Of a stretch of DNA of 64,000 nucleotides, positions 1-21,346 are shown piece after piece. This DNA comes from a virus. The stretch is from IMG/VR virus record IMGVR_UViG_3300042010_000106, positions 186,001 through 250,000 of that record; one strand, written 5' to 3'. A model generated the notes under the pieces. It was given only the letters and a program-made list of their open reading frames with translations, was not told the origin of the DNA and searched no databases. Position numbers and translations under genes: made by a program. How positions within the stretch are numbered: position 1 is the stretch's first letter; every line of letters begins with the position of its first letter.

Positions 1-189
1 ATGTTCCGCGTGTTGACGTTTGGACGGCGGGGCAGTTTTCGTGCTGGCACCATCGAGACTCAAGCCCGCTTTCTTGTAGCGTGAATTCGGGTGACTCTTC
101 AGGTATTTCGCTTGCTGATTCTTACTCGCACGATTCAGAAACCAATTGCCTTTCGGTTTGGTCTTAGCTTTCTTCGGTTTTAGGGCCAT
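1..189 (-). CDS. Basic hypothetical protein (3' end outside window)
   Basis: The frame opens with an ATG at 189 and is still open at position 1, so 63 N-terminal residues are visible. The product starts MALKPKKAKTKPKGNW and is rich in Lys, Arg and Asn, suggesting nucleic-acid binding or a small virion protein. Its first seven residues equal those of the topoisomerase A-like protein at 59085-60713, probably because both have a lysine-rich leader. The start overlaps the end of the preceding gene by 26 nt. No family was recognised. Confidence 0.7.
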   Translation of the reverse strand, partial: MALKPKKAKTKPKGNWFLNRASKNQQAKYLKSHPNSRYKKAGLSLDGASTKTAPPSKRQHAEH

Positions 190-472
190 CTGGCGTCCCT
201 CCCCGCGCACGTTCGTTATCCAGAATACGTGCAAACGATTCACCAAAGAATCCGTATTTTGGATCGCGATATTTGCTAACGTCGATACGATTCCTTTGAT
301 TCGGAATCAATTCGTCAGCAGTGAAATCTGGTTCCGTATCAGGCATTACAAACGGCGGGAACATCTTGGCTGTGCGGCGTTCCGCAATGGCCTGCAATTC
401 CTGTGTGGCACCTTTGAAAATGTCTTTGAAATCTTTTGGTTCCTCGCTGGCAAGGCAGAGCATGATTTTCAT
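164..472 (-). CDS. Hypothetical protein with the recurrent N-terminal tag
   Basis: 102 aa, function unknown. It begins MKIMLCLASEE, a divergent copy of the tag shared by many proteins in this block. The ATG overlaps the upstream stop codon (ATGA) and is preceded by AAGGTG, so the start is well supported. The rest is hydrophilic with a Pro/Asp-rich middle. As the shortest tagged frames do, it may be a small passenger protein delivered with the virion; that is inference from the tag only. Confidence 0.8.
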   Translation of the reverse strand: MKIMLCLASEEPKDFKDIFKGATQELQAIAERRTAKMFPPFVMPDTEPDFTADELIPNQRNRIDVSKYRDPKYGFFGESFARILDNERARGGTPDGPKTEES

Positions 473-732
473 CGGGCTTCACCTTGTCGATTCATACGGC
501 CCAACCAATTCGATTTGGACACGTGCATTTTGTCGATGTAATCGTGAGGCATTGTCGCCCCTTGATCTTGAACCTGTGATTCGTTGGCAAGCAGGCTTTT
601 CTTCTTTGACCGTGGAATGTCACCGATCAATTCGTCATCGTCTGCCCAGCGTGCAATACGGGCGCCGCCGCGTTGGTCACTGTCGGTACTCTTTGATTCA
701 CGGCCTTGGATTTTAAGCGAGATTTTTGCCAT
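469..732 (-). CDS. Small hydrophilic hypothetical protein
   Basis: 87 aa, no recognised family. It begins MAKISLKIQGRES, which only weakly resembles the tag of its neighbours, and is rich in Asp, Ser, Arg and Lys. It lies 6 nt downstream of the tagged 76-aa gene and overlaps the next gene by ATGA, which places it in the same transcription unit. No clear ribosome-binding site precedes the ATG, so translation may be coupled to the upstream gene. Confidence 0.75.
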   Translation of the reverse strand: MAKISLKIQGRESKSTDSDQRGGARIARWADDDELIGDIPRSKKKSLLANESQVQDQGATMPHDYIDKMHVSKSNWLGRMNRQGEAR

Positions 733-738
733 TTGTTT

Positions 739-969
739 TTACTGGAAGCGCACGGTATCCACTATATCAATCCGCGTACGTTCCGCTCCTTTCGTATTGG
801 TGTCGATAATTCCCTTACGTTTCCGTTTGGGGATTTTCTTTGTCTTTTTGCCTTTCGTTTTGTAAACAGGTGGCTTACCTTCTTTCGCATTGTCGAAACT
901 GATATAGGGCAATGCGTCCCAACGGTCAGCACTTCGACTAGTACGAGCCAATGACAATTCAATTTCCAT
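739..969 (-). CDS. Small basic protein with N-terminal tag
   Basis: 76 aa, begins MEIELSLARTS, a good match to the tag. The centre (residues about 38-52) is a run of Lys/Arg (KKTKKIPKRKRKG), suggesting nucleic-acid binding. AGAGGAA lies 7 nt before the ATG. It is the first gene after the terminator that follows the 910-aa gene, so it may need read-through or its own promoter. Function unknown. Confidence 0.8.
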   Translation of the reverse strand: MEIELSLARTSRSADRWDALPYISFDNAKEGKPPVYKTKGKKTKKIPKRKRKGIIDTNTKGAERTRIDIVDTVRFQ

Positions 970-1001
970 TTGCGTTCCTCTGCTACAAAATTACGAAAAG
1001 A

Positions 1002-1021
1002 GCGGGGTTTTTAGGCCCCGC
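1002..1021 (-). terminator. Intrinsic terminator after the 910-aa gene
   Basis: On the minus strand GCGGGG pairs with CCCCGC around an 8-nt loop and is followed by CTCTTTTC. It lies 8 nt past the stop codon of the gene at 1030-3762. Confidence 0.7.
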
Positions 1022-1029
1022 CCATTCGC

Positions 1030-3762
1030 TTAGTTGTAGCCTGCTGTATTGCGGTACTCTTCTGCGTTCTCAATCAAACCACGCAAAAGATCCGCAATGT
1101 TCTGCCCACTGTTCGCGAGGTTGTCTTCGTAATCTTCCAATTCATCTTCAGGGAAGTTATCGAAGAACTGACGCAAATCAGCCAGTTGTGAATCATCATC
1201 GTAACCAATCATCGACAGAATTTCTTCTGCAACCCGAACGATTTTGCTATTCAAATCAACCTTGGCATAGTTGCGATCTTCAATGATCTTTTTCGCTTCG
1301 TCTAAAACTTCAGCGTATTGTTCATCGTAGTTGTCGTCATCTGGATTGAGTGCAACACCCATTTCCTCGGTGTAAACCAATTCGCGGGCGGCTTCGTCTT
1401 CGTCCTGTGTTTCTTCGACTTCCAAAGATTCACAATAGTTTTCGAATTGCGTAATGGCTGTGCCCAGCATTGGCAACGACTTGATTGTACGAATGATTTG
1501 ACGATTGGAACGCGCCACTTCTTTCATACTGAAACGCGAAAATGCCAAGGTGTCTTCTTCCATACCACTGGCGTTTGCTGCATCTACGAGCAGGGGCAAG
1601 ATCGAAAGCATTTCAACTTTACGTGCGTTTTCATCCGTGCCGAAAACTACGTGACCGAACAGTTTGCCGAGTGGTGGGAAATCGTGTTCCTTATTCTCGT
1701 TGTACCATTCGTAGAACGCATCGTTATCCATGTCTTCCAGCGCGACTTTATGGCTGAGTGTCATTGGTGGATCGAGCAAGCGCCCGGTTGCCACACAAAG
1801 ACGCAGAACCAATTCAATAAAATCGTTTTCGTCTGGATCAATTGGATCGCCTTTCCATTCGTTAAGCTTGTCTGCAATGAATGGAACCATGTCGCTCAAG
1901 TTATTCGCAACGCTAGGCACGTTACGGTTTACGTACTTGAGCAAAGGCAGATGGAAGTGCGCCAGCATTTTGATGTTCCAATGCGTCCAGCGAGTCGAAT
2001 CAAAGTTCTCAGGCTCTGCTTCCATGTAATCAATAATGGCCTGCTTAATATCCTTGTACATATCCTGATTGGCAGCGTTTTGCATGCACTGTTGAAACGC
2101 CAACAGTTTTATGTGATCCATGAAAAAGCGCGTGCTGTTATTTTTCAAACGTTCCATCGCTTTGAATGGGCGACGTTTGCAAACCACTGGTGCCGCTTCT
2201 TCTACCGGTATTGCGAACACGGCGTCGGATTCCAGATACGAATCATCGTTATCCAGCAGCAAACACAGTGCAAGGCCAACGGTGGATGGGCCAACGTGCA
2301 TGCCTTCTTCTACAATGTCGGCATTGATTGTTTTCTCAGTGCCTTCAAGAAGCGCAACCAAATCATGCACTTGTTTTTCGAAATCTTTCACACCGAACAA
2401 CGGCATGTAACGTGCTGCACTTGCCATTGTGTATATCCACGATTTAACACGCGGACAATCTACAAACGTGTTTTCATCAGGCAGCGGATATGTACCATCC
2501 ATCAAGCCTGCAACCAATTCACGCATGCGGGAAACATTGTGTTCCTGTTCCATTCGCAGAACGTATTCACGCAGTACAGGCAAGCCGCTTTGTGCAAAAC
2601 GCCCGTGCAAACTTGGCGGGAATTCTTTGTAAGCAGACAACCGATCCTTGTTACCGAAGTCTTCCAAGAATCCAGCAGCACGACCAATCTGTGCAACAAC
2701 AGGATTCAATTTACCCATGGAAATTTGATTGGCGTATTCTTCCGCAAGTTTCGGACTGCCTTTCATCATTTCAGTCAGGGCTTTGATATCTTCGTCATGC
2801 AATGTGTCGGCAAAGCGAGCGATGTTCGCAATGATTGCACCTGATTCATCTGCGCCTTCGTCCATGCGTTGTTTTACGTACGGGACAATCAGCGATGGAT
2901 CTTCTGCAACGTCGTCCTGTGTGATTTCGCTGGTTTCACTGTCATTAACGCGATGGTGATGCGACGTACCGGCCCCGTCGTTGTAAAGGCCGCTGACAAC
3001 TTCGTAAAAACCTTCTGGAACGTGGGCGTTAATCTTGCGCAGGAAAGTATTCAACGTCTGTGAGAAACCGGGCACAGGGTTGCCGTAAACCCGCGTCTCA
3101 CGACGATACAAAACGTCACCGTCTTCGTTCACAAATGGTTTGACCAGACAGCGGCACAAAGGCTTCTGAATGTTCGTATCATCTGCACGAATTGCGTAGA
3201 CAACCAATGTACCTTCAGCAACGTCATTTTTCACGTGCTTGTTGTATTGCCCGTTGTCGTAACCTTCGCGGAAATCTTTCAAACGCATGCAGCTTTGATT
3301 GTCCCAATTACGGCCCGTAGACATACCAATAATGTCGTACGGATGGCAGGAAACAACCACTTGAATTCCGCTTTTATGGGGATCGCCACCAGTGGCTTTT
3401 GAGTTCTGCAATTGCGGGTCATTGTCGAACGCTGTTTTAGCGTGCACGTCTTTCGCAATTACTTTGCCAATGTTGAAAACGTTTTTCTGTTCTTTGTCAC
3501 TGGCTTTAACGCATTTCTTCGCCAGATAATCAGTGATGATATACCCGGCTTTCTGCACAGCCACACGAACAGCGGGCGGCACGGTGAAACGCATTTTCAT
3601 TTGCTTACCCGGTTCCAAATACAACCGGTAGCCTTTCTTTTTACCACCTTGCGGCATGAGACTTTGCAGAAGCTTTACAGCGGGGCCATTCTTGTTCCAG
3701 TCCCGACGATACTTCAACGCAGTCCGCATACTCACAGCGGCCAAGCTCATTTCGAGATTCAT
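1030..3762 (-). CDS. Giant tagged protein, paralogue A (910 aa)
   Basis: Function unknown. Residues 1-9 carry the tag (MNLEMSLAA). Residues about 10-260 align with the 875-aa protein at 4016-6643: an ALKYRR-W start, the conserved block TDYLAKKCVK, the segment DKEQKNVFNIGKVI, and a Cys-containing motif SCHPYDIIGMSTGR followed by QSCM, then YGNPVPGF. The remaining 650 residues are helical-looking, acidic towards the end, and differ between the two. AAGGA precedes the ATG. A tagged pair of this size suggests virion-associated proteins that are ejected or act as internal components, but no catalytic family was recognised. The conserved Cys/His/Asp motif could be an active site. Confidence 0.9.
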   Translation of the reverse strand: MNLEMSLAAVSMRTALKYRRDWNKNGPAVKLLQSLMPQGGKKKGYRLYLEPGKQMKMRFTVPPAVRVAVQKAGYIITDYLAKKCVKASDKEQKNVFNIGKVIAKDVHAKTAFDNDPQLQNSKATGGDPHKSGIQVVVSCHPYDIIGMSTGRNWDNQSCMRLKDFREGYDNGQYNKHVKNDVAEGTLVVYAIRADDTNIQKPLCRCLVKPFVNEDGDVLYRRETRVYGNPVPGFSQTLNTFLRKINAHVPEGFYEVVSGLYNDGAGTSHHHRVNDSETSEITQDDVAEDPSLIVPYVKQRMDEGADESGAIIANIARFADTLHDEDIKALTEMMKGSPKLAEEYANQISMGKLNPVVAQIGRAAGFLEDFGNKDRLSAYKEFPPSLHGRFAQSGLPVLREYVLRMEQEHNVSRMRELVAGLMDGTYPLPDENTFVDCPRVKSWIYTMASAARYMPLFGVKDFEKQVHDLVALLEGTEKTINADIVEEGMHVGPSTVGLALCLLLDNDDSYLESDAVFAIPVEEAAPVVCKRRPFKAMERLKNNSTRFFMDHIKLLAFQQCMQNAANQDMYKDIKQAIIDYMEAEPENFDSTRWTHWNIKMLAHFHLPLLKYVNRNVPSVANNLSDMVPFIADKLNEWKGDPIDPDENDFIELVLRLCVATGRLLDPPMTLSHKVALEDMDNDAFYEWYNENKEHDFPPLGKLFGHVVFGTDENARKVEMLSILPLLVDAANASGMEEDTLAFSRFSMKEVARSNRQIIRTIKSLPMLGTAITQFENYCESLEVEETQDEDEAARELVYTEEMGVALNPDDDNYDEQYAEVLDEAKKIIEDRNYAKVDLNSKIVRVAEEILSMIGYDDDSQLADLRQFFDNFPEDELEDYEDNLANSGQNIADLLRGLIENAEEYRNTAGYN

Positions 3763-3774
3763 ATTGTGTTGTCC

Positions 3775-4011
3775 TTAGTGCGAGTACACACGCAAATCGA
3801 CATGATTACCTTTGAGGCTGTCGAGAACGGCGCTAAGCAATTCCATTTCCGCTGTCATGCGTTGCTTCATTGCAACCATTTGAGGATTGCCACCTTCCAT
3901 TGTGACCACGCTCATACGCACGCGTTTCAATGCGGCTTCAACCAGCTTTGCACATTCTTTTGCATCGCTGACTTTGATTTGTGCTGCTGCTGTTGCGAGT
4001 TCAATGTTCAT
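3775..4011 (-). CDS. Small tagged helical protein
   Basis: 78 aa, begins MNIELATAAAQ, matching the tag. The remainder is predicted alpha-helical (KECAKLVEAALKRVR and ERMTAEMELL-like heptad segments), so a short coiled coil is plausible. It sits between the two giant paralogues with gaps of 4 and 12 nt, and could be a partner of either. Function unknown. Confidence 0.8.
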   Translation of the reverse strand: MNIELATAAAQIKVSDAKECAKLVEAALKRVRMSVVTMEGGNPQMVAMKQRMTAEMELLSAVLDSLKGNHVDLRVYSH

Positions 4012-4015
4012 AGAA

Positions 4016-6643
4016 TTAACTCAGTAAGTCGTCGAGAAGGGAATCGTCTTCGGCATTGATTTGGTCAGCAGTTTTCACGATGCGTTTGATCGAATCCAGT
4101 GTTTCCACTGCTTTCTCCGCTGCCTTTTTAATCTGGTAGAAAACGCCGCTAACACTGAACGCGTCTTTCTTAACCTGTTCATCGGTGTAGGCTTCAAGCC
4201 ATTCGACGTAGGGTTTCCAGTAATGCTCGCCGCCTGTTTCGTCTTCAGGGAAAGTTTCAACAAATTCCTGCAAGCGTGCCAAGTAGTTTTCACAGTCACG
4301 CAGAATTGCTTCCGGTTTATATTCCAAACGGGATTCAGGATCAGCAAAGAACACACGGCCAGCGCTATCTGCTGCTGTGAATTTCGAAGGCGCCCCGGCT
4401 GCACTGGCAAACGCTTGATACGTTCCAGAGTTGTACAGAATCGAGCCAAGCAACTGGCAGAATTCTTTAGGCGTTGGACTCTTCTTTTCCATGACTTGGA
4501 TGTAACGGAAACCACGATCATTACCCAAGAATTCATCAGGCGAAAGTGATTGTGCGTTACGCATGGTCAGCAGCATCGGGTATTTGATCAAGTCAATATT
4601 GGAGCTTTGCAGATTGGCTTTTTCCAGTGCACGCAAGGTATCGAACGAATCGAATTCAAACGTGAAATGTTCCGGTGCGTTTTTCTGAACCATTGCAACG
4701 GTGCCCAACATGTTCCAAAGGATTTGCTGGTCTGGATTACGTGCAACGTGCGAACCGGTAAGCTTTGCAAGTGCTGGCGCAATTTCGTCACCTTGTGGCA
4801 ACAGAATCGACAACATGTAACCGTCAACTTCCGGCGTGTGGGCTTCGATCATCGGGAACAATTCAGGCTTGTTGATCAACAGGCTAGGAAGTTCGTAGAA
4901 ATCGTCAACCATAATGCCACTGGATTGCACAGCCGCCATCAAATCACGTTGTGTGGAATTGTCACCTTTGTTGAAGGCAAGAATATTCATCACAGCGCCG
5001 GTCACGTATTGCTGAATGCGCTCAGGGAATCCTTGGCCTACCAATTTACGGCGCCATTTGCGGAATTCCAACAGCTTGTTAAAACTGGATTGTTGAATCA
5101 AATCCTCGGCCACGGTTTCCGCTTGGGAAACGCGATTATCACGCAGCAATTGCAGCATCCACGTACAGAAGATTTCAGGATCGTTTACGGTGTTCTGCAT
5201 CAGGATCATAAGCGGGCGGAAATCATCTTCGCTAATGCCCGGTTTTTCTGGTGCAGGAAGTTTACCCAATGCGGCATGCACGCTGTCTTGGAAATCATTC
5301 ACACCAAACATTGCTGCTTCACGATAAATGTTCAACACTTCCCAAATCATTTTGTGCAGGTTCGGGCGAGCGACAATATCTTTCGTGTTCAGGCTGATTC
5401 GACCGCGTACGTAATCCAGTGCAGTGCTAGACCAATCGGCATTATCGTCGTCCACGCCTTCCAGCAATTTGCTAGCGCCTTTCGGATCAACGTGAGACAT
5501 CGCACGTGAATTATGCACGTTGTAATCCGGCATCGCTTTGTGTACAGCGCGGGCCAGACGTTTGCTGGCGAGGAAACGACCTACACCATTCGCGTTACCG
5601 TGTTTAATCCCGTCTGCAAATGCTGCAACAGCTTCAGGATTATCGGCGATCAAACGTGCACCGATTTTGATGTTACGGGAATCGACATTCTTCGCATTGT
5701 TTCGCAGGAGCATCATTTGCTCACTGGCGCGATTCAGGTCTTTGCTCAAATCTTTGATTACGTACGAAACATAATCGGGGAATTCTTCTGGACTGGTCGC
5801 CAAATATTCGTGGATTTTAACCAAGCGCGACCAATTGGTGCCGCTGCTATTGCCCGATTCTTTCAAGGCAGTGCGGCCCACACCATCGTCATACAAACCC
5901 GACGACATTTCATACATTCCGTCTGGCACATTCTTATTCAGTTTGCGCAGGAATTTATTCAACGAGTCAGTAAAGCCGGGAACTGGATTGCCGTAAATCT
6001 TGAGTTCACGACGATACATCACGTCGCCTTTCTCACTGATAAACGGCTTCAACAGGCAGCGGCCTAACGGTGTGGTGATATTGCTGTCGCCACTTTTAAC
6101 CGCGTACGCAACTAAGGTGCCTTCTGCAACGTCGTTGTCTAGCTTGTCTGCGTTAATACCGTCGTCCATACCACCACGGCCATCGCGCAGGCGCATGCAG
6201 GATTGTGCATCCCAATCGCGCCCGGTACTCATGCCGATAATGTCATACGGGTGACACGACACAACCATTTCGAATTTGGCAGATTTCGAATTCTGCAATT
6301 GTGGATCGTTATCGAATGCTGCTTTTGCAATGTGATCTTTGCCAATCACTTTGCCGATATTGAAAACGTTCTTCTGTTCTTTATCGCCGACCTTTACGCA
6401 TTTCTTTGCAAGATAATCGGTGGCTACGTAGCCCGCTTTCGTGAGTGCATGCCGTACAGCCGCTGGAATCTTTACGCTGTGCGTTCCCAACGTGCCGCCG
6501 ATGGGAAAGTAAAGGCGATAACCGCGATTGTTCCCACGTGGCATAAGTTTCTGCAACAGCTTTACGGTCGGGCTTTTCTTGTCCCAATTGCGCCTGTATT
6601 TCAAAGCGCTTTTCATACTCACGGCAGCAATTGCGATTTCCAT
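4016..6643 (-). CDS. Giant tagged protein, paralogue B (875 aa)
   Basis: Paralogue of the 910-aa protein at 1030-3762. It carries the tag (MEIAIAAVS), the ALKYRRNW segment, DYLAKKCVK, DKEQKNVFNIGKVI, SCHPYDIIGMSTGR with QSCM nearby, and YGNPVPGF, all in the same order within residues 1-270. The C-terminal 600 residues diverge, indicating duplication followed by specialisation of the C-terminal half. GAGGAA lies before the ATG; the preceding gene ends 2 nt upstream. Enzymatic function not recognised. Confidence 0.9.
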   Translation of the reverse strand: MEIAIAAVSMKSALKYRRNWDKKSPTVKLLQKLMPRGNNRGYRLYFPIGGTLGTHSVKIPAAVRHALTKAGYVATDYLAKKCVKVGDKEQKNVFNIGKVIGKDHIAKAAFDNDPQLQNSKSAKFEMVVSCHPYDIIGMSTGRDWDAQSCMRLRDGRGGMDDGINADKLDNDVAEGTLVAYAVKSGDSNITTPLGRCLLKPFISEKGDVMYRRELKIYGNPVPGFTDSLNKFLRKLNKNVPDGMYEMSSGLYDDGVGRTALKESGNSSGTNWSRLVKIHEYLATSPEEFPDYVSYVIKDLSKDLNRASEQMMLLRNNAKNVDSRNIKIGARLIADNPEAVAAFADGIKHGNANGVGRFLASKRLARAVHKAMPDYNVHNSRAMSHVDPKGASKLLEGVDDDNADWSSTALDYVRGRISLNTKDIVARPNLHKMIWEVLNIYREAAMFGVNDFQDSVHAALGKLPAPEKPGISEDDFRPLMILMQNTVNDPEIFCTWMLQLLRDNRVSQAETVAEDLIQQSSFNKLLEFRKWRRKLVGQGFPERIQQYVTGAVMNILAFNKGDNSTQRDLMAAVQSSGIMVDDFYELPSLLINKPELFPMIEAHTPEVDGYMLSILLPQGDEIAPALAKLTGSHVARNPDQQILWNMLGTVAMVQKNAPEHFTFEFDSFDTLRALEKANLQSSNIDLIKYPMLLTMRNAQSLSPDEFLGNDRGFRYIQVMEKKSPTPKEFCQLLGSILYNSGTYQAFASAAGAPSKFTAADSAGRVFFADPESRLEYKPEAILRDCENYLARLQEFVETFPEDETGGEHYWKPYVEWLEAYTDEQVKKDAFSVSGVFYQIKKAAEKAVETLDSIKRIVKTADQINAEDDSLLDDLLS

Positions 6644-6645
6644 GT

Positions 6646-7038
6646 TTATTCCTCGAAGGACTTGGCTGGTTTATACACCATCAACAAGCTGCCCCATTCT
6701 TCTTTGAAAAGCTTGAGTGTTTCTTGCATCGTCGCGTCCAATTTCAGCGCCGGACGGAAACCATTTTTGTAGAAGGTATGCAGACTGGCGACACTGGAAA
6801 CTTGACCGCCAATATCTGATTTGTATTTGCTCACAATGCCGCGCAGCAATTGATTACCGTAGCCTTGCCCGCGTTTGTCTTCGTCAATAACGAAATCAGT
6901 TACGCTGTGTTTGCATGGCGAATACTTCCCGCCAGTCTTCACGCAGATGTAACCATGGGCGCTACGGTATTCGGTGCCGAAGTGTTCATCGCGTTCTGTG
7001 ATTTTGATTGACGCTGCGACAGCCATTTCTACTTTCAT
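6646..7038 (-). CDS. Tagged GNAT-family N-acetyltransferase
   Basis: 130 aa. After the tag (MKVEMAVAAS) comes a GNAT fold: the acetyl-CoA-binding motif A is seen at residues about 48-66 as DFVIDEDKRGQGYGNQLL (R/Q-x-x-G-x-G/A form), followed by a helix and a C-terminal strand region with FYKNGFRP, typical of the GNAT end. GNATs transfer acetyl from acetyl-CoA to an amine; the substrate cannot be told. Because the enzyme carries the same tag as the ADP-ribosyltransferase-like proteins nearby, I infer it modifies a host target soon after infection. Confidence 0.85.
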   Translation of the reverse strand: MKVEMAVAASIKITERDEHFGTEYRSAHGYICVKTGGKYSPCKHSVTDFVIDEDKRGQGYGNQLLRGIVSKYKSDIGGQVSSVASLHTFYKNGFRPALKLDATMQETLKLFKEEWGSLLMVYKPAKSFEE

Positions 7039-7545
7039 TTATTCGCCTATTCCTAATCCGACTGGATCGAAAGCGCCACTGTTACCAATTGCCGATTTGA
7101 TTTGCGAGGGATGAAAAACAATCCATTGCGGATGCGTACCGCCCACGTCGTAATGGTTCAGCAGCAACACACCATCACAACCTTTGCGCAAAGCTTCACG
7201 AATTACATCGGCGCGGCCTTCTTTGCCACCGTGGAAATCGTGCGTGTGCAATTTGTTGATTTTCAAATAGCACGGCAGCACGTGACCAATCACAGGCGAT
7301 GGAAAGTTTTCGTCGTAGCCTGCATAACGACCGGCAGTTTCTGCATCACTGGTAAAGAAAATACCGGATTCGCCTTCTGCTTTATTCAGGTGCGTCATGA
7401 AAGCGTGAAAGGATGGTTTGTTTGTGCCGTGATAAACACGCAAAGGTTTCCCGTGCGCGTCCACACATTTCGAATGACCAAACCACGCTTTAAACGCTGG
7501 GGTTTCTTGTTGCTTGGCAGTCGCTAAAGCGAGTTGGATTTTCAT
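7039..7545 (-). CDS. Tagged ADP-ribosyltransferase-like protein (ART-PolyVal type)
   Basis: 168 aa. Tag MKIQLALATA, then the pattern of ADP-ribosyltransferases found in phage and conjugative polyvalent proteins: AFKAWFG near residue 17, VYHGT at 37-41, FHAF, and the FFTSD..TAGRYA segment at 63-75, where NAD-binding aromatic residues normally lie. Downstream GCDGVLLLNHYD and a final WIVFHPSQIKSA strand also fit this family. Members transfer ADP-ribose from NAD+ to proteins or small molecules. In T4 the related activity (Alt) is packaged in the head and modifies host RNA polymerase, so the tag makes a similar injected role plausible. The acceptor is unknown. Confidence 0.85.
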   Translation of the reverse strand: MKIQLALATAKQQETPAFKAWFGHSKCVDAHGKPLRVYHGTNKPSFHAFMTHLNKAEGESGIFFTSDAETAGRYAGYDENFPSPVIGHVLPCYLKINKLHTHDFHGGKEGRADVIREALRKGCDGVLLLNHYDVGGTHPQWIVFHPSQIKSAIGNSGAFDPVGLGIGE

Positions 7546-7817
7546 TTATTCACGACAACAGCTTCGTTGCTGTCCCATTCGTAACGAGTGGTGATTTCTT
7601 TTTCTTCACCGTTGGCACCAGTCAGATACAGAGTGAAATCAATTTTATCGAGTTGTTCTGTGTACTGATTGATGTTGTTGCGAATTGCTTCCTGCTTATC
7701 ACCTTTGCCGCGAGACAAAACAGGATTGCCGTGTTTCACATCACGGATTTCATAACCGCGAATTTTGAAACCACGTGGTGCCATATTTGCAGCAGCAACA
7801 GCCAATTGAATTTGCAT
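7542..7817 (-). CDS. Small tagged hypothetical protein
   Basis: 91 aa, begins MQIQLAVAAANMA, one of the cleanest copies of the tag. The body is a mixed alpha/beta sequence (FTLYLTGANGEEKEI then TRYEW) with no recognised family. Its stop codon overlaps the start of the ADP-ribosyltransferase-like gene by 4 nt, so the two are probably translationally coupled; it might be a partner or immunity-like regulator of that enzyme, which is inference from position only. Confidence 0.8.
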   Translation of the reverse strand: MQIQLAVAAANMAPRGFKIRGYEIRDVKHGNPVLSRGKGDKQEAIRNNINQYTEQLDKIDFTLYLTGANGEEKEITTRYEWDSNEAVVVNK

Positions 7818-7822
7818 TGTGT

Positions 7823-8323
7823 TTAAACCTTTGCGTTCTGTTCAGGGCGGGCATTGATCGCAGCAGCGAAGGCCGCGTATGCCTCTGTGTGGTAGTCGGT
7901 GGCGCTGGCGGTCGCTACCTGCACCGTCATGGCCCCTGTCAGAGCCTCTACAGCGCTCGCCACGGCTTTAAAGTCGCGTGCCAGTGCCCGAACCTCACCC
8001 GCTGGCAGGAAATCGACTGCGGCGGGCCGGGAGACGTCCTGTACGGCCACGTCTTCGCGGCTCTTCACCATGATGCTATCCACGCACCGGGCAGGCAGCG
8101 CTTCGTAATACGCAAACGAACCATCGTGATTCGGCGTCATTAACGCAAGGTCATAAGTCACTTTGCAATCGCTGAATGCAACGCCAACAATCTTTGCAGG
8201 AATTGCGTAAGTGTTTGCTTCTGCCAACGTTAGGTTTTCAATCGCTGGATGGAAATAAACCTCTTCTTCCATTTTATAACGACTTGGGAAATGTTGCCCG
8301 ATACTGGAAAGCTCGACGTTCAT
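7823..8323 (-). CDS. Hypothetical protein with weak tag and GC-rich 3' half
   Basis: 166 aa from the ATG at 8323 (MNVELSSIGQHF). An upstream in-frame start at 8368 is possible but would lie inside a terminator, and the tag-like first residues favour 8323. The N-terminal half contains beta-like segments; the C-terminal half is Ala-rich (VASAVEALTGAMT) and noticeably richer in G+C than its neighbours. No family recognised. Confidence 0.75.
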   Translation of the reverse strand: MNVELSSIGQHFPSRYKMEEEVYFHPAIENLTLAEANTYAIPAKIVGVAFSDCKVTYDLALMTPNHDGSFAYYEALPARCVDSIMVKSREDVAVQDVSRPAAVDFLPAGEVRALARDFKAVASAVEALTGAMTVQVATASATDYHTEAYAAFAAAINARPEQNAKV

Positions 8324-8349
8324 TGTTTTAGGCCCTATAGAAACAGAGA

Positions 8350-8372
8350 AAGGGCGACATATAGTCACCCTT
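8350..8372 (-). terminator. Hairpin terminator
   Basis: Minus strand AAGGGTGAC pairs with GTCGCCCTT (one G-U) around a 5-nt loop TATAT, followed by a short pyrimidine run TCTCTGTTT. It lies 15 nt past the stop codon of the gene at 8387-8851. Confidence 0.6.
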
Positions 8373-8386
8373 CCTTTAAATTACTG

Positions 8387-8851
8387 CTATTTGTGCAAAT
8401 GAATCTGCGATACGTCCATTGGAACATACGCAATTTCAGCGTCTTTGAATCGTTCGTGGATTGCATGCAGATTTGATTCATACACGGCAATGCCATCGTA
8501 ATGCGGCGCAGGGTATTCAGGCACACTCAAATAGGCCCACAATTCGTCGGCAAAGTTCATGTGCACAGGATCGCCCAGCTTGATTGGTTTAGCGGAACGC
8601 GTATTCAATTCATGCGGAACGAAATAGGTGTTGTAAATCTCTACTGCGCGCTTGTCCGTTCGGGTATCGAATAGACGTTTGATATCCACGTGCGCTTTCA
8701 TGATTATGTGCCCGTATTCCTTTGCGTAATCAATTGACGCCGAAAAGAACGCAGGCCGGTATTCAGAAAACTTTGTGAACTTCTTTTTGGTGCCATGAAA
8801 CAAAAGGTCAGGCACTTTCGATGTGCTGGCAATAGCCAGTTCAATCTTCAC
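8387..8851 (-). CDS. Second tagged ADP-ribosyltransferase-like protein
   Basis: 154 aa. I place the start at the GTG at 8851 because it gives MKIELAIAS, a perfect copy of the tag, and overlaps the upstream TGA as GTGA; an in-frame GTG at 8860 would add only three residues. After the tag the sequence has LLFHGT at 16-21 and FFSASIDYAKEYG at about 35-47, the H-G-T and aromatic-loop signatures of the ADP-ribosyltransferase fold, and a late ELWAYLSV/YDGIAVYE segment. Sequence is clearly different from the 168-aa enzyme, so the two likely have different targets. A catalytic Glu was not assigned with certainty. Confidence 0.75.
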   Translation of the reverse strand: MKIELAIASTSKVPDLLFHGTKKKFTKFSEYRPAFFSASIDYAKEYGHIIMKAHVDIKRLFDTRTDKRAVEIYNTYFVPHELNTRSAKPIKLGDPVHMNFADELWAYLSVPEYPAPHYDGIAVYESNLHAIHERFKDAEIAYVPMDVSQIHLHK

Positions 8852-9030
8852 GCGGCGCACTTCATTGTGCGGGCCAATTCAGGATATTCCTGTTCGAATT
8901 TGCGCCAGCTTTCAAGCATACGTGCGGTACGCTCTTTGTTCTCTGCGTAAATGCGATCCTTTTCTTCTTGCGGCAATGCGTCGAATTCAGCGCGAATTCT
9001 TTTTAGGTCGAATTTGTGTGCGTGGAGCAT
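8848..9030 (-). CDS. Small charged helical protein
   Basis: 60 aa, very rich in Glu, Arg and Lys, predicted as one or two long helices (RIRAEFDALPQEEKDRIYAE). It lacks the tag. GGA lies at a normal distance before the ATG. It overlaps the end of the lipoprotein-like frame (8987-9232) by 44 nt and ends in a GTGA overlap with the ADP-ribosyltransferase-like gene downstream. Function unknown. Confidence 0.75.
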   Translation of the reverse strand: MLHAHKFDLKRIRAEFDALPQEEKDRIYAENKERTARMLESWRKFEQEYPELARTMKCAA

Positions 9031-9232
9031 TTGAGCGTCCTTTCTTTTGTTTGAGATATGGGCGATTCAATTGTGGGCGAAACCCCGGTGGCCCTGCTTG
9101 ACCACGGCAACCACCAGCGCCGTCGTTCCAATCCTCTCCCGGTAGCCCTTCGTCTCCCAATGGGCCGTGTTCACCACGACAGCCAACTGAAAGGCCCAAT
9201 AGTGCAACTGCTAACGCCAATGAGTTACGCAT
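8987..9232 (-). CDS. Putative small lipoprotein with collagen-like repeats
   Basis: 81 aa. Residues 1-18 look like a lipoprotein signal peptide ending in Cys (LALAVALLGLSVGC; the lipobox is imperfect, with Ser at -3). Residues about 20-48 contain Gly at nearly every third position (GPLGDEGLPGED then GQAGPPG), a collagen-like pattern with one break, and the tail is Lys/Arg-rich. If real, it would be anchored in the outer membrane and could act in lysis (spanin-like) or exclusion of other phages. The ATG follows the previous stop directly; the 3' end overlaps the next gene by 44 nt, which lowers confidence. Confidence 0.5.
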   Translation of the reverse strand: MRNSLALAVALLGLSVGCRGEHGPLGDEGLPGEDWNDGAGGCRGQAGPPGFRPQLNRPYLKQKKGRSNAPRTQIRPKKNSR

Positions 9233-9628
9233 TTAATCACCATTTAAAATCACTGGCGGGCACCCAATGCACGCGCCCATTTGCAGAACGGAATCGAGGA
9301 AATAAATGTTGTTTGTGAAGCTGTCATTCTGCTGTGTGGCCCAACCGAACGTATTACCGGCAGCGGTCTTTTCACCCGTCACCGCATCCACACCGGCTGT
9401 TTCCACGTAGGCGCTGTATTCGTAGAATTTGCCACCGCTGAAACCGTAAGCCATCACATTCACACGCGCTTTGAATTCACCAGTTGTGATGTCCTCATAA
9501 CACTTGAACATTTTGACACTGGTTGCATCAGGATCACCCGGTTCAAAAGAGAAGCCACGCGATTCAAGCTTTTCTATGAACTGTGCGGCTTCGGTTGGAC
9601 TGGCAGCGACTGCTAATTGAATTTCCAT
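9233..9628 (-). CDS. Tagged hypothetical protein
   Basis: 131 aa, begins MEIQLAVAASPTEA, a clean copy of the tag followed by a helix (AAQFIEKLESRGF) and a beta-rich domain. Two Cys near the C-terminus (GACIGCPP) could bind metal or form a disulphide. AGGTGA precedes the ATG, which overlaps the topoisomerase stop codon as TAATG. No family recognised. Confidence 0.85.
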   Translation of the reverse strand: MEIQLAVAASPTEAAQFIEKLESRGFSFEPGDPDATSVKMFKCYEDITTGEFKARVNVMAYGFSGGKFYEYSAYVETAGVDAVTGEKTAAGNTFGWATQQNDSFTNNIYFLDSVLQMGACIGCPPVILNGD

Positions 9629-11301
9629 TAATCACCTTTCGTTGCCAGATCCATTGCTTTCTGAATCTTGCTATTTGGACGGGTATTCGTTTTCGCAAAT
9701 ACAGGCTCGAAAACAGACGGGTCGATGTAGTTCGCAATTGCCGTGGTGGCCGTCACGTTCTCGCCGCTCATATGTCCGAGTTCTTTACCGATGTTCAGGC
9801 ATTGCTTTTCAATCCACGCATTCACGTCTGCATCTTTCGCACGGGCACCGAACGGACATTTCGCCATCAGAACCATTGCCATTCCAGTACCACGCAATTT
9901 GCGGAATTTGTGAATGGTGAAGCCTTCAGGGAAACCGAGTTCGCGCAGGTATCCGTTGATGTTCGAATTGCTGATTGGTTTGCCACGGAACGTGAACACG
10001 TATTCACCGGGCTTTTTGTCAAAGCAGAATTCGTTGATGGATTCCTTGAGCATTTCGGTACGCTGCTCGTTGAATTTGATTACGTGTTTCTGTGCACCGC
10101 CTTTCTTCCCGGCGTACTTCATAATCACGCGTGTTTCATTCAAATTCAGATGCTTACGCAGCAGTGTGGAAATGCCGTAAGTGGTTTCGCCAGCGGTATT
10201 GGCTTTGGTTGAACCGATACGTGCACTGGTCTGATAAATCACTTCGCAAATTGCAGCAGCCGTACCTTTCAGTGTACCGGGGCCTTTGCCCAAATCCACC
10301 AGCCATTTCTTTGTCCACTTCGGCAAATCAGGAAGCATGCCCTGAATAATGCTGAAACTTTCAACACGACCTTCGGTACGCGATTTGATCGTCTGCACAT
10401 TCGTGAAATTGGCAGCAAACGGCGCCTTGTATTTGCACACATAGGCGTTGTCATCGTCGGGCCGGTATTTCGGATTCATTTCACCAATGCCAATTGGTTT
10501 GTTCAGCAATTGCAAACCGGCTTCTGTGTAGAAATTCCCTTTGTCGTCCATCTTGCCGACGAACCATTCAGGGATATCGTGCTGCACATTGGCTAAGCGC
10601 TCACGAATTACAACCACGTCCAAAAGGTGTTCCCCGGACTGGCGCACGACGTTGGCAATTGCTTTGTCATACACCGCTTTCCGTTGCCTGCGCATATCCA
10701 AATATTCTTGGTGTTGCGGCAGGTTAGAACCGAGTTCCTTTGCTTTCTCACGCCATGCTGTCAGCGTGGTTTCAGGCATCACGTTACCGCTGACTTTCCC
10801 GTGTGTTTTCACATGGTTAGCGAGCCGATCGTACAGCGCGGTTTGACTACTGGTTTGAACCTCTTCCCCTTCGTGCATAAACATTTTGCTGATATGCGAA
10901 TCTTTGAACAGACCCGCATTCTGCATCAAACGTTTGTTAGCACTTTCCGAACCATTCCGCGCCAGACGAATATCGTTGAACAAAGAAAGCTGCACTTTGT
11001 TCAGGCTGGTGTCTTTCTCGAACGCTTTCTTTTTCTCTTTCAGTTTGAGGAAACACGCGTCCATAAGCAGCGTGTATTTGTGGTCTGCAACGTCGTGCCC
11101 TTCGACCATTAATGCAATAGGCTTTTTGAATACGCGAGCAATCTGGAATTGATCAAGGAAAGGCTGCGCAGTGTGCGCCCACGTCTTGAGCTTTTTCAGA
11201 AAGTCTGTGCCGAAGTCGTATTCTGGCGCTTTCAAGAAGGCAATCAAAATCTTTAGGAAAGCGTCGGCACTGCCCGGTGCAGCGGCCAAAGAGATTTGCA
11301 T
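9628..11301 (-). CDS. Tagged type IB DNA topoisomerase
   Basis: 557 aa. Relaxes supercoiled DNA through a 3'-phosphotyrosyl intermediate. The C-terminal catalytic domain has the type IB pentad in order: Arg in SARIGST with the following YGISTL signature, Lys in YAGKKGG, Arg467 in HKFRKLRGT, His510 in LGHMSG and the nucleophile Tyr525 in ANYIDPSVFE. The first ~300 residues include Lys-rich helices and match no domain I know. The tag (MQISLAAAPGS) is at the N-terminus; poxviruses are a precedent for packaging a IB topoisomerase in the particle. GGAGCG precedes the ATG. The genome also encodes a type II enzyme (59085-62773), so this one may serve the incoming or packaged DNA. Confidence 0.88.
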   Translation of the reverse strand: MQISLAAAPGSADAFLKILIAFLKAPEYDFGTDFLKKLKTWAHTAQPFLDQFQIARVFKKPIALMVEGHDVADHKYTLLMDACFLKLKEKKKAFEKDTSLNKVQLSLFNDIRLARNGSESANKRLMQNAGLFKDSHISKMFMHEGEEVQTSSQTALYDRLANHVKTHGKVSGNVMPETTLTAWREKAKELGSNLPQHQEYLDMRRQRKAVYDKAIANVVRQSGEHLLDVVVIRERLANVQHDIPEWFVGKMDDKGNFYTEAGLQLLNKPIGIGEMNPKYRPDDDNAYVCKYKAPFAANFTNVQTIKSRTEGRVESFSIIQGMLPDLPKWTKKWLVDLGKGPGTLKGTAAAICEVIYQTSARIGSTKANTAGETTYGISTLLRKHLNLNETRVIMKYAGKKGGAQKHVIKFNEQRTEMLKESINEFCFDKKPGEYVFTFRGKPISNSNINGYLRELGFPEGFTIHKFRKLRGTGMAMVLMAKCPFGARAKDADVNAWIEKQCLNIGKELGHMSGENVTATTAIANYIDPSVFEPVFAKTNTRPNSKIQKAMDLATKGD

Positions 11302-11302
11302 T

Positions 11303-11752
11303 TCATCGCTCCATATTTTTCAGGACGTAATCCATCCGCTCAAATTTAATGGCGTATTTCCGAGACTTGATGTCCTCGGCTGGAATACGGATACCCACGT
11401 AATAGCACGTGTGGTTCAAACGTTCTTTTGCGTCTTCGACAATTCGATTGTTATCGTCGAGGCACATCAGCACGGTATCAATGTAATCGCGTTTGCCATC
11501 AAGGCGAACTTTGTAGCCGTAGCACAATGTGTAATTGTGTTTCTCGGCGAAGGCAATAAACAAATCAACATTGTCCGGGTTCGGAATGTCGTCTGTGAAA
11601 TGCCCACGCTTCATTAGCGGCATTTGAATCAAACGCTGTCCGAGGTCACGCCACGTTGGCCGACTAACAGTCAGCCGTGTGATTACAGGCTTCGGTATGT
11701 AGTTCTTTACAGTGTTTAGAACGGCGCTTGCGCAACTGATAATAATCTTCAT
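11303..11752 (-). CDS. Hypothetical protein with degenerate tag
   Basis: 149 aa, begins MKIIISCASAV, the most divergent member of the tagged set. The ATG overlaps the dTMP kinase stop as TAATG. A hairpin with the AAACACTGTAA loop lies in codons 14-20 (11702-11722). The C-terminal half has beta-alpha-beta character (YYVGIRIPAEDIKSRKYA). No family recognised. Confidence 0.8.
   Translation of the reverse strand: MKIIISCASAVLNTVKNYIPKPVITRLTVSRPTWRDLGQRLIQMPLMKRGHFTDDIPNPDNVDLFIAFAEKHNYTLCYGYKVRLDGKRDYIDTVLMCLDDNNRIVEDAKERLNHTCYYVGIRIPAEDIKSRKYAIKFERMDYVLKNMER
11702..11722 (-). promoter_or_regulatory. Hairpin with variant AAAC(AC)TGTAA loop
   Basis: Minus strand: GTTCT, an 11-nt loop AAACACTGTAA, then AGAAC. 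It lies inside the beginning of the 149-aa gene. It belongs to the family of motif-in-loop hairpins described in the findings; function unknown. Confidence 0.4.
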
Positions 11753-17539: not shown

Positions 17540-19465
17540 TCAATAGAACGGTGTTACTGTGCGCTTCACGTTGTGTTGTGTACCTTGTTCCTGCATGCGG
17601 CGCAGTTGTGCAACGATCTTGCGGTTAGCGCGTTCGTTCGCCAATTTCTGGTTCGGCAGATAACGCTTTTTGCCCAACGAATCATGGCCGGGAACTTCTT
17701 GCAGCTCGCCGAAATCACGATTCGCCAAAGACATCATTTTGCCGGGGCCACGTGCCAGAACGTCAGAATGTGTGCTATCCAAATTCTGGTTGTAATAGCT
17801 GTTCGAAAGAGCGCGCATTTCATCCATCATCTGGTGCAGTTGACCGCTGTTCGCCATCGCTGCAATTTTGCCGTTCGATGCGAAACCACCATCACCACCG
17901 CCACCGCCCATAGCATCATCGCTAATGCCGTATTTCTTTTTCAATTCTTTTACGCTTTTCTGATATTCGTACACACGTTCTTGAATGTGCAAATCAGATT
18001 CTTGCGTAGCCAGCAGACGGTCGAGATTGAAACCCGCAGCGGCAGTCATTGCACGCATTGGAACCGGTACGCCTTTGTCTGTCAGCGCTTGCAGCATGTC
18101 CATGTATTGTTGATCGCCTTCAGGCTTCAACGTCTTTTCCCAATGCACAGAAGGAATCAACAAACGCGTGCCATCGCTCAAACGTTCGTAGCTGCCCAAA
18201 GGATCGAGTTTTTCCAAACTGTTACCACGGACAACCAATTTCCCGTTCGGGTTAATTGTGTAGCCTTTCATGGCGCTGATCATCGGGAAGATTTTGTTGT
18301 ACAGAACTTTCCGCGTCAGATAATCACGTTCGTTACGCACGCCGTCGATGAACAACGAAGTGGAAGTATCGCCGTTGGTGTACGTGGCGTCACCAGAAAG
18401 AAACGCATCGGAAATTCCGAGTGCTTTCATGATGTAGCCGTCGATTGCATCTTTGTTGTCAAAGATTGTCCAGCCGCCCGTTGGATCGCGAATTTCTTCG
18501 GTGGAAATACCACCACGCGTTGCAACCACTGCACCGATTGGATCGGCGTCGGCGTTCATGAACATATCCATTACGGCTTGCATGTCAGCAATGGTTGGTT
18601 CCCATTCGCCAGCACCGTCAAGCGTTACGTGGAGAATACCTTTTTGACGCATTGCAGAACGAACCAACGTCCCACGGAAAAGGTTTTTCTCCATCAAATA
18701 CCACGGGAGAACGCGACGGTAATAGCTGTTTGCTGTGCTGCCTGTAGAACCGCGACGGGGAACGTAAACCGTTGATTTTGGGTCTAATTCCAACGCCTCG
18801 TTACTCAGTTGTTTCATTACGTCCGAACCGAGGAATTCACGCAGTGCTTTCACACGCGGGCTATCCGATTGCATGGTCGAACGAACCGATTCAGGAAACG
18901 CAACGGTGATCAAAGGATCGGTGCCATGGAACGGCAATTGATCGACCTTTGTGTTTTCGTAACCGTGCGGCATGATGCGGCTAAATACTTGGTTGGTGCC
19001 GTTGTACAAAAGCGAACCAACGAACGCGCCTTTGACGTTGTAATCCACGTCAATTTCCGGCATCAATGTACGGATGTCGAGGCGATCAATGTTTTCCTGA
19101 AAGTCTTCAGAAACTTTACGATCAAGAATACCGCCGAGGGTGAATTCGGAGAACATCAATTGCGATTTGATATCGACAATCGAACCGGCAATGTTGTGGT
19201 TGTAATAAATGTCGGAATACAAACGCATGACCAGTTTTTTCTGTTCAAGGTCTTCCGAGAAAACGATATCTTTCAGCAGCGGATCAACGTCGATTTCAAT
19301 TGGCAGTTGCGACACGCTGGTATTGTGCGAGTTTGCAGTCGCCATGTATTCATCGCGAATTTCTGTCGAGCGATCATAATGCGTTTGACCGGCGCCTATA
19401 TCAACTTGACGGCCCCCGGTCGGCTGGTGGCGAGCTGAATACGTGGTGCGTTTGGTAAGTTTCAT
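17540..19465 (-). CDS. Portal protein
   Basis: 641 aa. Forms the dodecameric ring at one capsid vertex through which DNA is packed and ejected. The typical portal stem region is visible at about 345-405: IMKALGISDAFLSGD, then TNGDTSTSLFIDGVRNERDYL and VLYNKIFP. The N-terminal 60 residues are flexible; a Gly-rich linker (GGGGGDGG) near residue 520 precedes a basic C-terminal tail. It lies two genes from the KTSC protein and about 1.9 kb downstream of the terminase, a normal order for morphogenesis modules. Confidence 0.9.
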   Translation of the reverse strand: MKLTKRTTYSARHQPTGGRQVDIGAGQTHYDRSTEIRDEYMATANSHNTSVSQLPIEIDVDPLLKDIVFSEDLEQKKLVMRLYSDIYYNHNIAGSIVDIKSQLMFSEFTLGGILDRKVSEDFQENIDRLDIRTLMPEIDVDYNVKGAFVGSLLYNGTNQVFSRIMPHGYENTKVDQLPFHGTDPLITVAFPESVRSTMQSDSPRVKALREFLGSDVMKQLSNEALELDPKSTVYVPRRGSTGSTANSYYRRVLPWYLMEKNLFRGTLVRSAMRQKGILHVTLDGAGEWEPTIADMQAVMDMFMNADADPIGAVVATRGGISTEEIRDPTGGWTIFDNKDAIDGYIMKALGISDAFLSGDATYTNGDTSTSLFIDGVRNERDYLTRKVLYNKIFPMISAMKGYTINPNGKLVVRGNSLEKLDPLGSYERLSDGTRLLIPSVHWEKTLKPEGDQQYMDMLQALTDKGVPVPMRAMTAAAGFNLDRLLATQESDLHIQERVYEYQKSVKELKKKYGISDDAMGGGGGDGGFASNGKIAAMANSGQLHQMMDEMRALSNSYYNQNLDSTHSDVLARGPGKMMSLANRDFGELQEVPGHDSLGKKRYLPNQKLANERANRKIVAQLRRMQEQGTQHNVKRTVTPFY

Positions 19466-20791: not shown

Positions 20792-21346
20792 TCACCATTT
20801 TGAGCGCACGCGCCCATTCACAGGTTTATCGGAAACCACGAAAAGTTTATCCGTTGCATTGCCCTGATAGGCGAATGACAGCATCATATTTTTCGTGTGC
20901 GGTTCAACCAACGATAAACCATTGGTATGTTGCACGTAAACGAACCGGTCGTTTGTGTCTTCCTTGACAAAACGTTTCCACATTTCAGCACCGAGTTTAC
21001 GCTGTCGTTCATCCGACACAAGAATGTTTCCATTCTGGCTGAAGTAACGCATGACCAACCGGGCAAACCCTTTAGGGCAACCCGGTAACTGCCAAACGTT
21101 TTTCTGCACGTAAACATCACGGCCTTGGTAACTGAATTTGTGCACGAAACAAATGTACAATTGTGCTTCGTCGTTCGCATCCATGCGCGTGTAAATAAAA
21201 CCGTCTTCGTATGGGCGAACCTGTACGAAGTGACCGTCTACGGAAACAGTTTCTGTTGCAGGTTTCCATGATGCTTCCCGCATGGCTTTTGTAGGCTCAT
21301 TACGGGCAGGTGCTAACCCATAAGGAGCGGCCAGACTTATTTCCAT
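20792..21346 (-). CDS. Tagged hypothetical protein outside the main block
   Basis: 184 aa, begins MEISLAAPYGLAPA, a clear tag although it lies 9 kb from the main tagged block, inside the morphogenesis module. It has beta-rich segments (GFIYTRMDANDEAQLYICFV) and the GAEMWKRFVKE segment shared in pattern with the 194-aa protein at 19462. Possibly a GNAT-like fold, not certain. Its position between terminase and portal supports a link between the tag and the capsid. Confidence 0.8.
   Translation of the reverse strand: MEISLAAPYGLAPARNEPTKAMREASWKPATETVSVDGHFVQVRPYEDGFIYTRMDANDEAQLYICFVHKFSYQGRDVYVQKNVWQLPGCPKGFARLVMRYFSQNGNILVSDERQRKLGAEMWKRFVKEDTNDRFVYVQHTNGLSLVEPHTKNMMLSFAYQGNATDKLFVVSDKPVNGRVRSKW

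Follow-up and report, generated by a model that had tools for sequence, protein, structure and literature searches.

Why do about 14 phage proteins with otherwise unrelated bodies begin with the same short peptide? The question is raised by a stretch of 64,000 nucleotides (hereafter the window; bases 186001-250000 of the 312,325-base virus record IMGVR_UViG_3300042010_000106, from a phage labelled G000), in which adjacent genes on the minus strand, between positions 11752 and 164, form an island of proteins with a common N-terminal tag of the type M-[KEQN]-[IVL]-x-[LMI]-[AS]-x-A. Judged by its terminase, the nearest relatives of G000 are Pseudomonas phages HRDY3 and Lu11 (64-66%), followed by PaBG and the Erwinia/Dickeya jumbo phages; the PaBG authors gave the name Lupandier to this group (PMC7412058). 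We conclude that the tag is very probably a short capsid-targeting propeptide, similar to that of T4 but of different protease specificity, which marks a payload delivered with the virion.

The tag occurs on 13 genes at 164-11752, on one at 20792, and on two elsewhere near head genes. The tagged genes of the window and its portal gene are as follows (a slash marks the putative end of the tag):

164-472, minus strand: 102-aa tagged gene; variant tag MKIMLCLA/S at 449-472 (C is residue 6), with MKIMLAVA in the Lu11 gene at the same position.
739-969, minus strand: 76-aa tagged gene; MEIELSLA/R at 946-969 (homologues: HRDY3 MEVLISLA/G, Lu11 MNILLTVA/K).
1030-3762, minus strand: giant paralogue A, 910 aa; MNLEMSLA/A at 3739-3762; homologues in 76 viral-contig loci.
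3775-4011, minus strand: 78-aa tagged gene; MNIELATA/A at 3988-4011 (similar small gene in L159, MQIELATA/A).
4016-6643, minus strand: giant paralogue B, 875 aa; short 6-residue tag MEIAIA/A at 6626-6643, its junction aligning with that of paralogue A.
6646-7038, minus strand: GNAT-like, 130 aa; MKVEMAVA/A at 7015-7038; Acetyltransf_7 3.2e-5, under the Pfam cut-off; HRDY3 orthologue MEMTLALA/A.
7039-7545, minus strand: ADP-ribosyltransferase (ART-PolyVal), 168 aa; MKIQLALA/T at 7522-7545; PF18760 3.9e-20 and 73.5 bits, over the gathering score of 31.2, as a polyvalent-protein ADP-ribosyltransferase should be.
7542-7817, minus strand: 91-aa tagged gene; MQIQLAVA/A at 7794-7817.
7823-8323, minus strand: weakly tagged gene; MNVELSSIG from an in-frame ATG at 8323 (longest open reading frame to 8368); homologues clearly tagged, HRDY3 MKTEIAIA/S and L152 MKMEIATA/A.
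8387-8851, minus strand: ADP-ribosyltransferase-like, 154 aa, starting at GTG 8851, not at 8860; MKIELAIA/S at 8828-8851; PF18760 3.3e-4, 21.9 bits, under the cut-off; Lu11 homologue MKIQLAVA/T, PF18760 1.6e-4.
9233-9628, minus strand: 131-aa tagged gene; MEIQLAVA/A at 9605-9628.
9628-11301, minus strand: topoisomerase IB, 557 aa; MQISLAAA at 11278-11301, exact cut uncertain; PF01028 1.3e-12; tagged orthologues in HRDY3, Lu11, G004 and NCTB.
11303-11752, minus strand: 149-aa tagged gene; variant MKIIISCA/S at 11729-11752 (orthologues: HRDY3 MEMMLALA/A, Lu11 MKLYLTTA/S).
17540-19465, minus strand: portal protein; putative protease site YMATA/NSHN at about residue 44.
20792-21346, minus strand: lone 184-aa gene between portal and terminase; MEISLAAP at 21323-21346 (short form); weak PHROG 1349 match.

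The first-pass annotation had described one tag on about 14 unrelated proteins, and this holds: 13 called genes of G000 match it in relaxed form where 0.54 would be expected, and the tagged bodies differ. Most of the members that it listed match the pattern; 20792 is a short form, and those at 164, 11303 and 4016 are variants and 7823 is weak, while the homologues of these four in relatives are clearly tagged. Of the bodies that it had named, GNAT, two ADP-ribosyltransferase-like proteins and topoisomerase IB have Pfam matches, and the others are the two giant paralogues and small unknowns. When the 64 kb were scanned for gene starts with the strict pattern ^M[KEQNDRTS][IVLM]x[LMIV][AS]xA, ten starts in the island were recovered, from 739 to 11752, the only other matches being an internal start in the open reading frame at 7823 and one at 34469, which lies inside another frame and belongs to no plausible gene. 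The expectation of 0.54 comes from a relaxed pattern applied to the whole genome and was derived from internal protein positions (Poisson P about 3e-14); with about 0.5 matches expected per genome and 13 seen, a chance origin of the tag is rejected. Nine of the 13 genes lie in the island and one in the head-assembly operon (record positions 4730-5089, MKVFIALA/ASPL), and three look like chance matches. The same count gave 11 genes in HRDY3, 13 in Lu11, nine in JA29, seven in Alexandra, and one in PaBG. Equal use of the tag on replication proteins would have spoken against a role in the virion; in a scan of all called genes of G000, no replication gene carries it.

The tag is under selection as a peptide. 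Among 11 tags of G000, pairwise identity at codon positions 1, 2, and 3 is 0.45, 0.76, and 0.33, and the corresponding values for the Lu11 tags are 65%, 81%, and 34%. Where two tags agree in a residue, the same codon is used in 0.36 of cases, which equals the 0.36 expected from the codon usage of the genome. As synonymous sites are randomised and codon choice is at background, the tag is conserved as protein and not as DNA; recent DNA copying and a nucleotide signal are therefore excluded, and we rejected a DNA-level or start-site element on these grounds.

Further, the tags change in concert between lineages. Motif scans of the genome and of relatives, both suggested by the first-pass annotation, found the tag clustered in G000 and the same island in relatives with tag versions of their own. 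Lu11 and HRDY3 have the same island, with tags mostly of the form MKIQLAVA in the former and ME[ML]xLALA in the latter. Dickeya phages JA29 and AD1 and Erwinia phages Alexandra, Yoloswag, and SNUABM_5 use M[EQK][IVL]x[VI]SLS, and the 281-kb viral contig G004 has about 11 tags of the type MK[IL]x[VI][AS]L[AS]. Tags on non-homologous proteins are 0.50 identical within a genome vs. 0.38 between genomes (1 of 5000 label permutations was as extreme), and unrelated tags of one genome are at least as alike as orthologous tags of different genomes, which are 0.45 identical. Such likeness is expected if one common partner faces all the tags of a phage.

The last three tag residues recur at putative prohead-protease sites in the major capsid protein (MCP) and the portal: A-x-A in the Pseudomonas-type phages and S-x-S in the Dickeya/Erwinia phages. 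Pfam gave no match for the prohead protease, MCP or portal of G000, and their identity is based on similarity to annotated relatives; cleavage sites were assigned by motif, position, and alignment. In the alignment, the MCP has a variable linker between two conserved parts. Ten of the 11 Pseudomonas-type phages have A-x-A in this linker, with S or N as the next residue (G000 IAVA/NH, Lu11 VATA/SS, HRDY3 IATA/SS), and all nine S-class phages have S-x-S there. The putative MCP site of G000 is at residue 72 of 360 (20% of the protein), and PaBG has candidate sites at 72 and 78 of 368; these positions fit the loss of about 20% of mass published for the PaBG capsid protein in the virion (PMC7412058). 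Likewise, the portal arm has A-T-A before its conserved core (MATA, LATA, LATA, and EATA in G000, HRDY3, Lu11, and PaBG, respectively), and S-x-S stands at the corresponding place in JA29, Alexandra, Yoloswag, AD1, and SNUABM_5 (RSTS, ASQS, RSQS, VSQS, and MSTS). A comparable stretch lies close to the N-terminus of the HRDY3 prohead protease itself (NQIAIA/SAG). Taken from sequence comparison, these matches strongly indicate that the tag ends in a motif which the prohead protease of the same phage would cut.

The giant paralogues at 1030 and 4016 extend this comparison to a single body. They define a family with the motif HPYD[IV][IA]GM, present at 76 viral-contig loci and in named phages. All 56 homologue starts that read as intact have the body beginning at one position, in most cases with A[LV]xxS..R, after a tag with a modal length of 8. 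The residue before the junction (P1) is E in 27, A in 17, and S in 12 of these, and P3 is tied to it: A goes with A in 14/17, S with S in 12/12, and L or I with E in 23/27. Examples are MNLEMSLA/AVSMRTALKYRRDW in G000, MEIEVSLS/ALTPSQYRPFMQMW in JA29, and MQYTDLIE/ALKPSEYRLFVKGW in Agrobacterium phage Atu_ph07. L/I-x-E is the motif of T4 gp21 (PMC9026906), and L/I/F-x-E stands at the end of the capsid propeptide in 9/9 of the E-class phages for which both genes were available. Because the junction class follows the capsid-propeptide class, the same body appears to carry the site that the protease of its own phage should cut. An AlphaFold2 model of paralogue B has a mean predicted local distance difference test (pLDDT) score of 86, and the tag is placed outside the predicted fold, as residues 1-5 score below 50. 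The domain fold gave no significant match in the PDB (best E 0.11, weakly GNAT-like), and viral matches to the model were the family itself and weaker unnamed phage proteins. The region 1030-6643 presents an undescribed conserved domain (invariant H-P-Y-D, W, S-C-M) found in many jumbo and huge phages.

Tagged genes also occur among head genes. One lies between the prohead protease and MCP genes in G000, Lu11, and HRDY3, encoding a 120-residue protein in the latter two; NCTB has five such tagged genes, including topoisomerase IB, between those for the capsid protein and the protease, and in G004 a tagged gene adjoins the capsid gene. A homologue of the giant paralogues is near the MCP gene in L173 and L195, and in L195 it is also near a gp22-like scaffold candidate with many L-x-E sites. 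The analogy with T4 capsid targeting, which the first-pass annotation had drawn, is backed by these tagged genes of head operons, by the tag end that equals the putative MCP and portal sites, and by their joint switch between lineages.

The domains found on tagged cargo are ART-PolyVal (the window, JA29, L157, L199), GNAT-like, topoisomerase IB, NUDIX (L199), and DarA_C (NCTB), the last being the C-terminal domain of DarA of phage P1. P1 DarA is associated with head morphogenesis (PMC12810830), and for ADP-ribosyltransferases, NUDIX, and domains related to them, a case for packaging in phage heads has been made (PMC9503650). A library of defence systems gave no matches. In Atu_ph07, 11 consecutive genes, gp053-gp063, start with M[KR]WxxLxE or nearly so (gp063 with MRLFQLLE), and the ADP-ribosyltransferase-like gp381 is tagged as well (MKWQDLSE). 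Its virion proteome was reported to contain 29 proteins from coding sequences 31-76, only two of them predicted structural (PMC6102473), and this range contains the tagged array, although the figure of 29 applies to the cluster and not to each tagged gene. The array (NC_042013 39484-50592, L150) looks like an independent payload island with a T4-type motif, and one of its genes is zeta-toxin/AAA kinase-like (1.5e-14).

As the tag ends in an apparent site of the head-maturation protease, it most likely loads proteins into the head. We propose that its first part, M-[KEQ]-[IV]-x-[LIVM], would bind the prohead core as this grows, and whatever protein bears it would thereby be enclosed during capsid assembly. 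The final three residues, small-x-small (A-x-A here), would be what the prohead protease recognises; cutting at head maturation behind residue 8 (in a few tags, behind residue 6-8), it would free the cargo inside the head, and it would also cut the MCP after about residue 72 and the portal after about residue 44. Together with the DNA, this cargo of ADP-ribosyltransferases, GNAT, topoisomerase IB, giant paralogues, and small unknowns would then leave the head and act before phage gene expression sets in. We lean, by a narrow preference, towards a broader claim as well: that the tag is a complete and portable packaging code of about 8 residues in two parts, able to turn any protein into virion cargo, and that cargo genes moving between jumbo-phage lineages swap theirs for whichever class (A-x-A, S-x-S or L-x-E) suits the local protease. 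The whole injected payload could then be read from gene starts, and in G000 a topoisomerase IB carried by the virion would belong to it, as would two large members of an undescribed family.

Other explanations of the tag have to be weighed against capsid targeting. It could be a protease-processing site only, trimming or activating proteins that reach the head in some other way, for instance through their bodies or by binding DNA; what the MCP and portal sites have in common with the tag is limited to about P4-P1, and the T4 leader keeps targeting and processing residues separate (PMC9026906). However, tag residues 1-5 are conserved as well, on bodies that have no fold in common, and vary together within a genome, and the tag is always at the extreme N-terminus with a constant length of about 8, which makes processing alone unlikely. 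Sorting to another phage-made compartment or partner during infection (phage nucleus, early vesicle, or membrane) would equally predict a short N-terminal signal on unrelated proteins, but we regard it as considerably less likely still: the replication and transcription genes, whose products would be expected imports, are without the tag, its end equals the protease sites of capsid protein and portal and changes jointly with these, and tagged genes occur within head operons. Both are possible readings that explain less than capsid targeting does. That the tag is a by-product of recombination, or a regulatory or ribosome-binding element with no function as protein, might be suggested by the adjacency of the genes and the paralogy of some bodies. 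Yet third codon positions are random and same-codon use is at background, the amino acids are conserved and lineage-specific, and the sequences upstream of tagged genes differ; the codon analysis refutes this idea unless an effect of the peptide itself on translation is proposed, and we give it almost no credence. A Sec signal peptide, with A-x-A as the leader-peptidase site, was considered and rejected, as no hydrophobic core of about 8-12 residues precedes A-x-A: the tag has 8 residues in total, is charged or polar at position 2 and mostly at 4, and its E-class counterparts end in L-x-E.

Several observations weigh against capsid targeting itself. The cleavage sites are placed by motif and position and are thus putative. 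S-x-S in the Ser-rich arms of MCP and portal is individually likely by chance (shuffle probability 0.08-0.92), and as these single occurrences are not significant, the weight rests on the alignment and on the A/S/E switch; the phages compared for this co-variation are related, hence not independent. There are exceptions: the MCP has V-I-A in L096 and L097, L225 combines S-x-S tags with A-F-A-S in the MCP, and PaBG, NCTB, and G004 are mixed or irregular. The tags at 164, 11303, and 7823 are degenerate, and a cut after residue 8 of the topoisomerase tag would leave Pro at P1'. With regard to virions, no tagged A-x-A protein was named as virion-borne in the proteomic datasets that we found, and the 14 Coomassie-visible proteins of PaBG include only one candidate, gp83, which starts with MLIKINLLEAVA. 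The assignment of the PaBG virion proteins gp191, gp261 and gp263 to genes is unreliable, as the gene numbering of the paper disagrees with that of RefSeq.

PaBG gp83 (MLIKINLLEAVAAKA) also resembles a second class of N-termini in the same island, although the similarity is weak (E = 0.08-0.3). This class, seen in Alexandra and JA29, has the form MALIKINLxxxVxSxSA... (also MQY...) on several unrelated proteins (L021 22287-30395, Alexandra; L020 22631-24163), and the capsid linker of Alexandra shares the string STSANA with one of them; it is possibly a longer packaging leader. A conserved acidic protein of G000 (record positions 309192-310481, equal to L018 3192-4481; KMPT-N 3.6e-10 in Pfam) starts with MIIGLAAAQ, and its homologues, which adjoin DNA ligase in relatives, start with MNIALAAS (HRDY3) and MILSVSAS (Alexandra). 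It is probably tagged too, and is a candidate core protein. The island includes a few untagged genes, among them a small Gly-Pro-rich, collagen-like gene at 8987-9232 (minus strand), with similar genes in HRDY3 and Lu11. The terminase large subunit (21362-24658, minus strand) has two apparent intein-like insertions (CVIGSTSVF... and CVVGSTIVE..., the second ending in ...IIQHNC).

As virion proteomes are available for only a few giant phages, most of the proteins that such phages inject are unknown. Should the tag act as we argue, the payload of a large group of uncultivated jumbo phages could be compiled from nothing but their sequences, with unnamed effectors that probably counter host defences among it, and very short peptides would become candidates for loading proteins into giant capsids. 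The predicted cleavage after A-x-A or S-x-S was found described for no prohead protease of any phage, nor did we find a description of the tag in the open-access literature.

Among known systems, herpesvirus assemblin cuts after Ala before Ser, which resembles the putative A/S sites found here. The proteases are related, in that T4 gp21 was reported to be homologous to the herpesvirus protease (PMC9026906), but assemblin processes scaffold instead of N-terminal cargo tags, and we claim no membership of that system. In SPN3US and phiKZ, head proteins of giant phages are also matured by a prohead protease, and in the SPN3US motif [V/A]-A-x-E/S, P3 is Ala and P1' is Ser (PMC10052503). However, this protease cuts after Glu, at A/S-x-E, whereas P1 is Ala or Ser in the tags, MCP, and portal of the G000 clade; most propeptides there have 111-254 residues, not 8, and no large unrelated set with one short tag has been reported. 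Polyvalent and virion-packaged effectors (ART-PolyVal, NUDIX, DarA) have the same cargo domains and are predicted or known to be carried in the head and injected (PMC9503650), although their packaging was deduced from domain fusion and gene context, and here from a separate, presumably cleavable tag.

The closest parallel is the capsid-targeting sequence (CTS) of T4, carried by IPI-III and Alt and processed by gp21. As in T4, a short N-terminal leader is common to internal proteins with unrelated mature parts, including an ADP-ribosyltransferase. The T4 leader ends in a prohead-protease motif that also occurs in the capsid protein, and the tag described here very likely does so too, at a putative site. 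In T4 IPIII the first 10 residues are enough for packaging, and targeting and processing residues are separable (PMC9026906). Unlike T4, which has four tagged proteins, about 13-15 are found here, most in one syntenic island, and the motif of G000 is A-x-A (S-x-S in relatives) in place of the L/I-x-E that gp21 cuts. Function has been demonstrated in T4, whereas here we infer it. As L/I-x-E is found only in distant E-class homologues, we would say that the tag works like the T4 CTS, and not that it is one.

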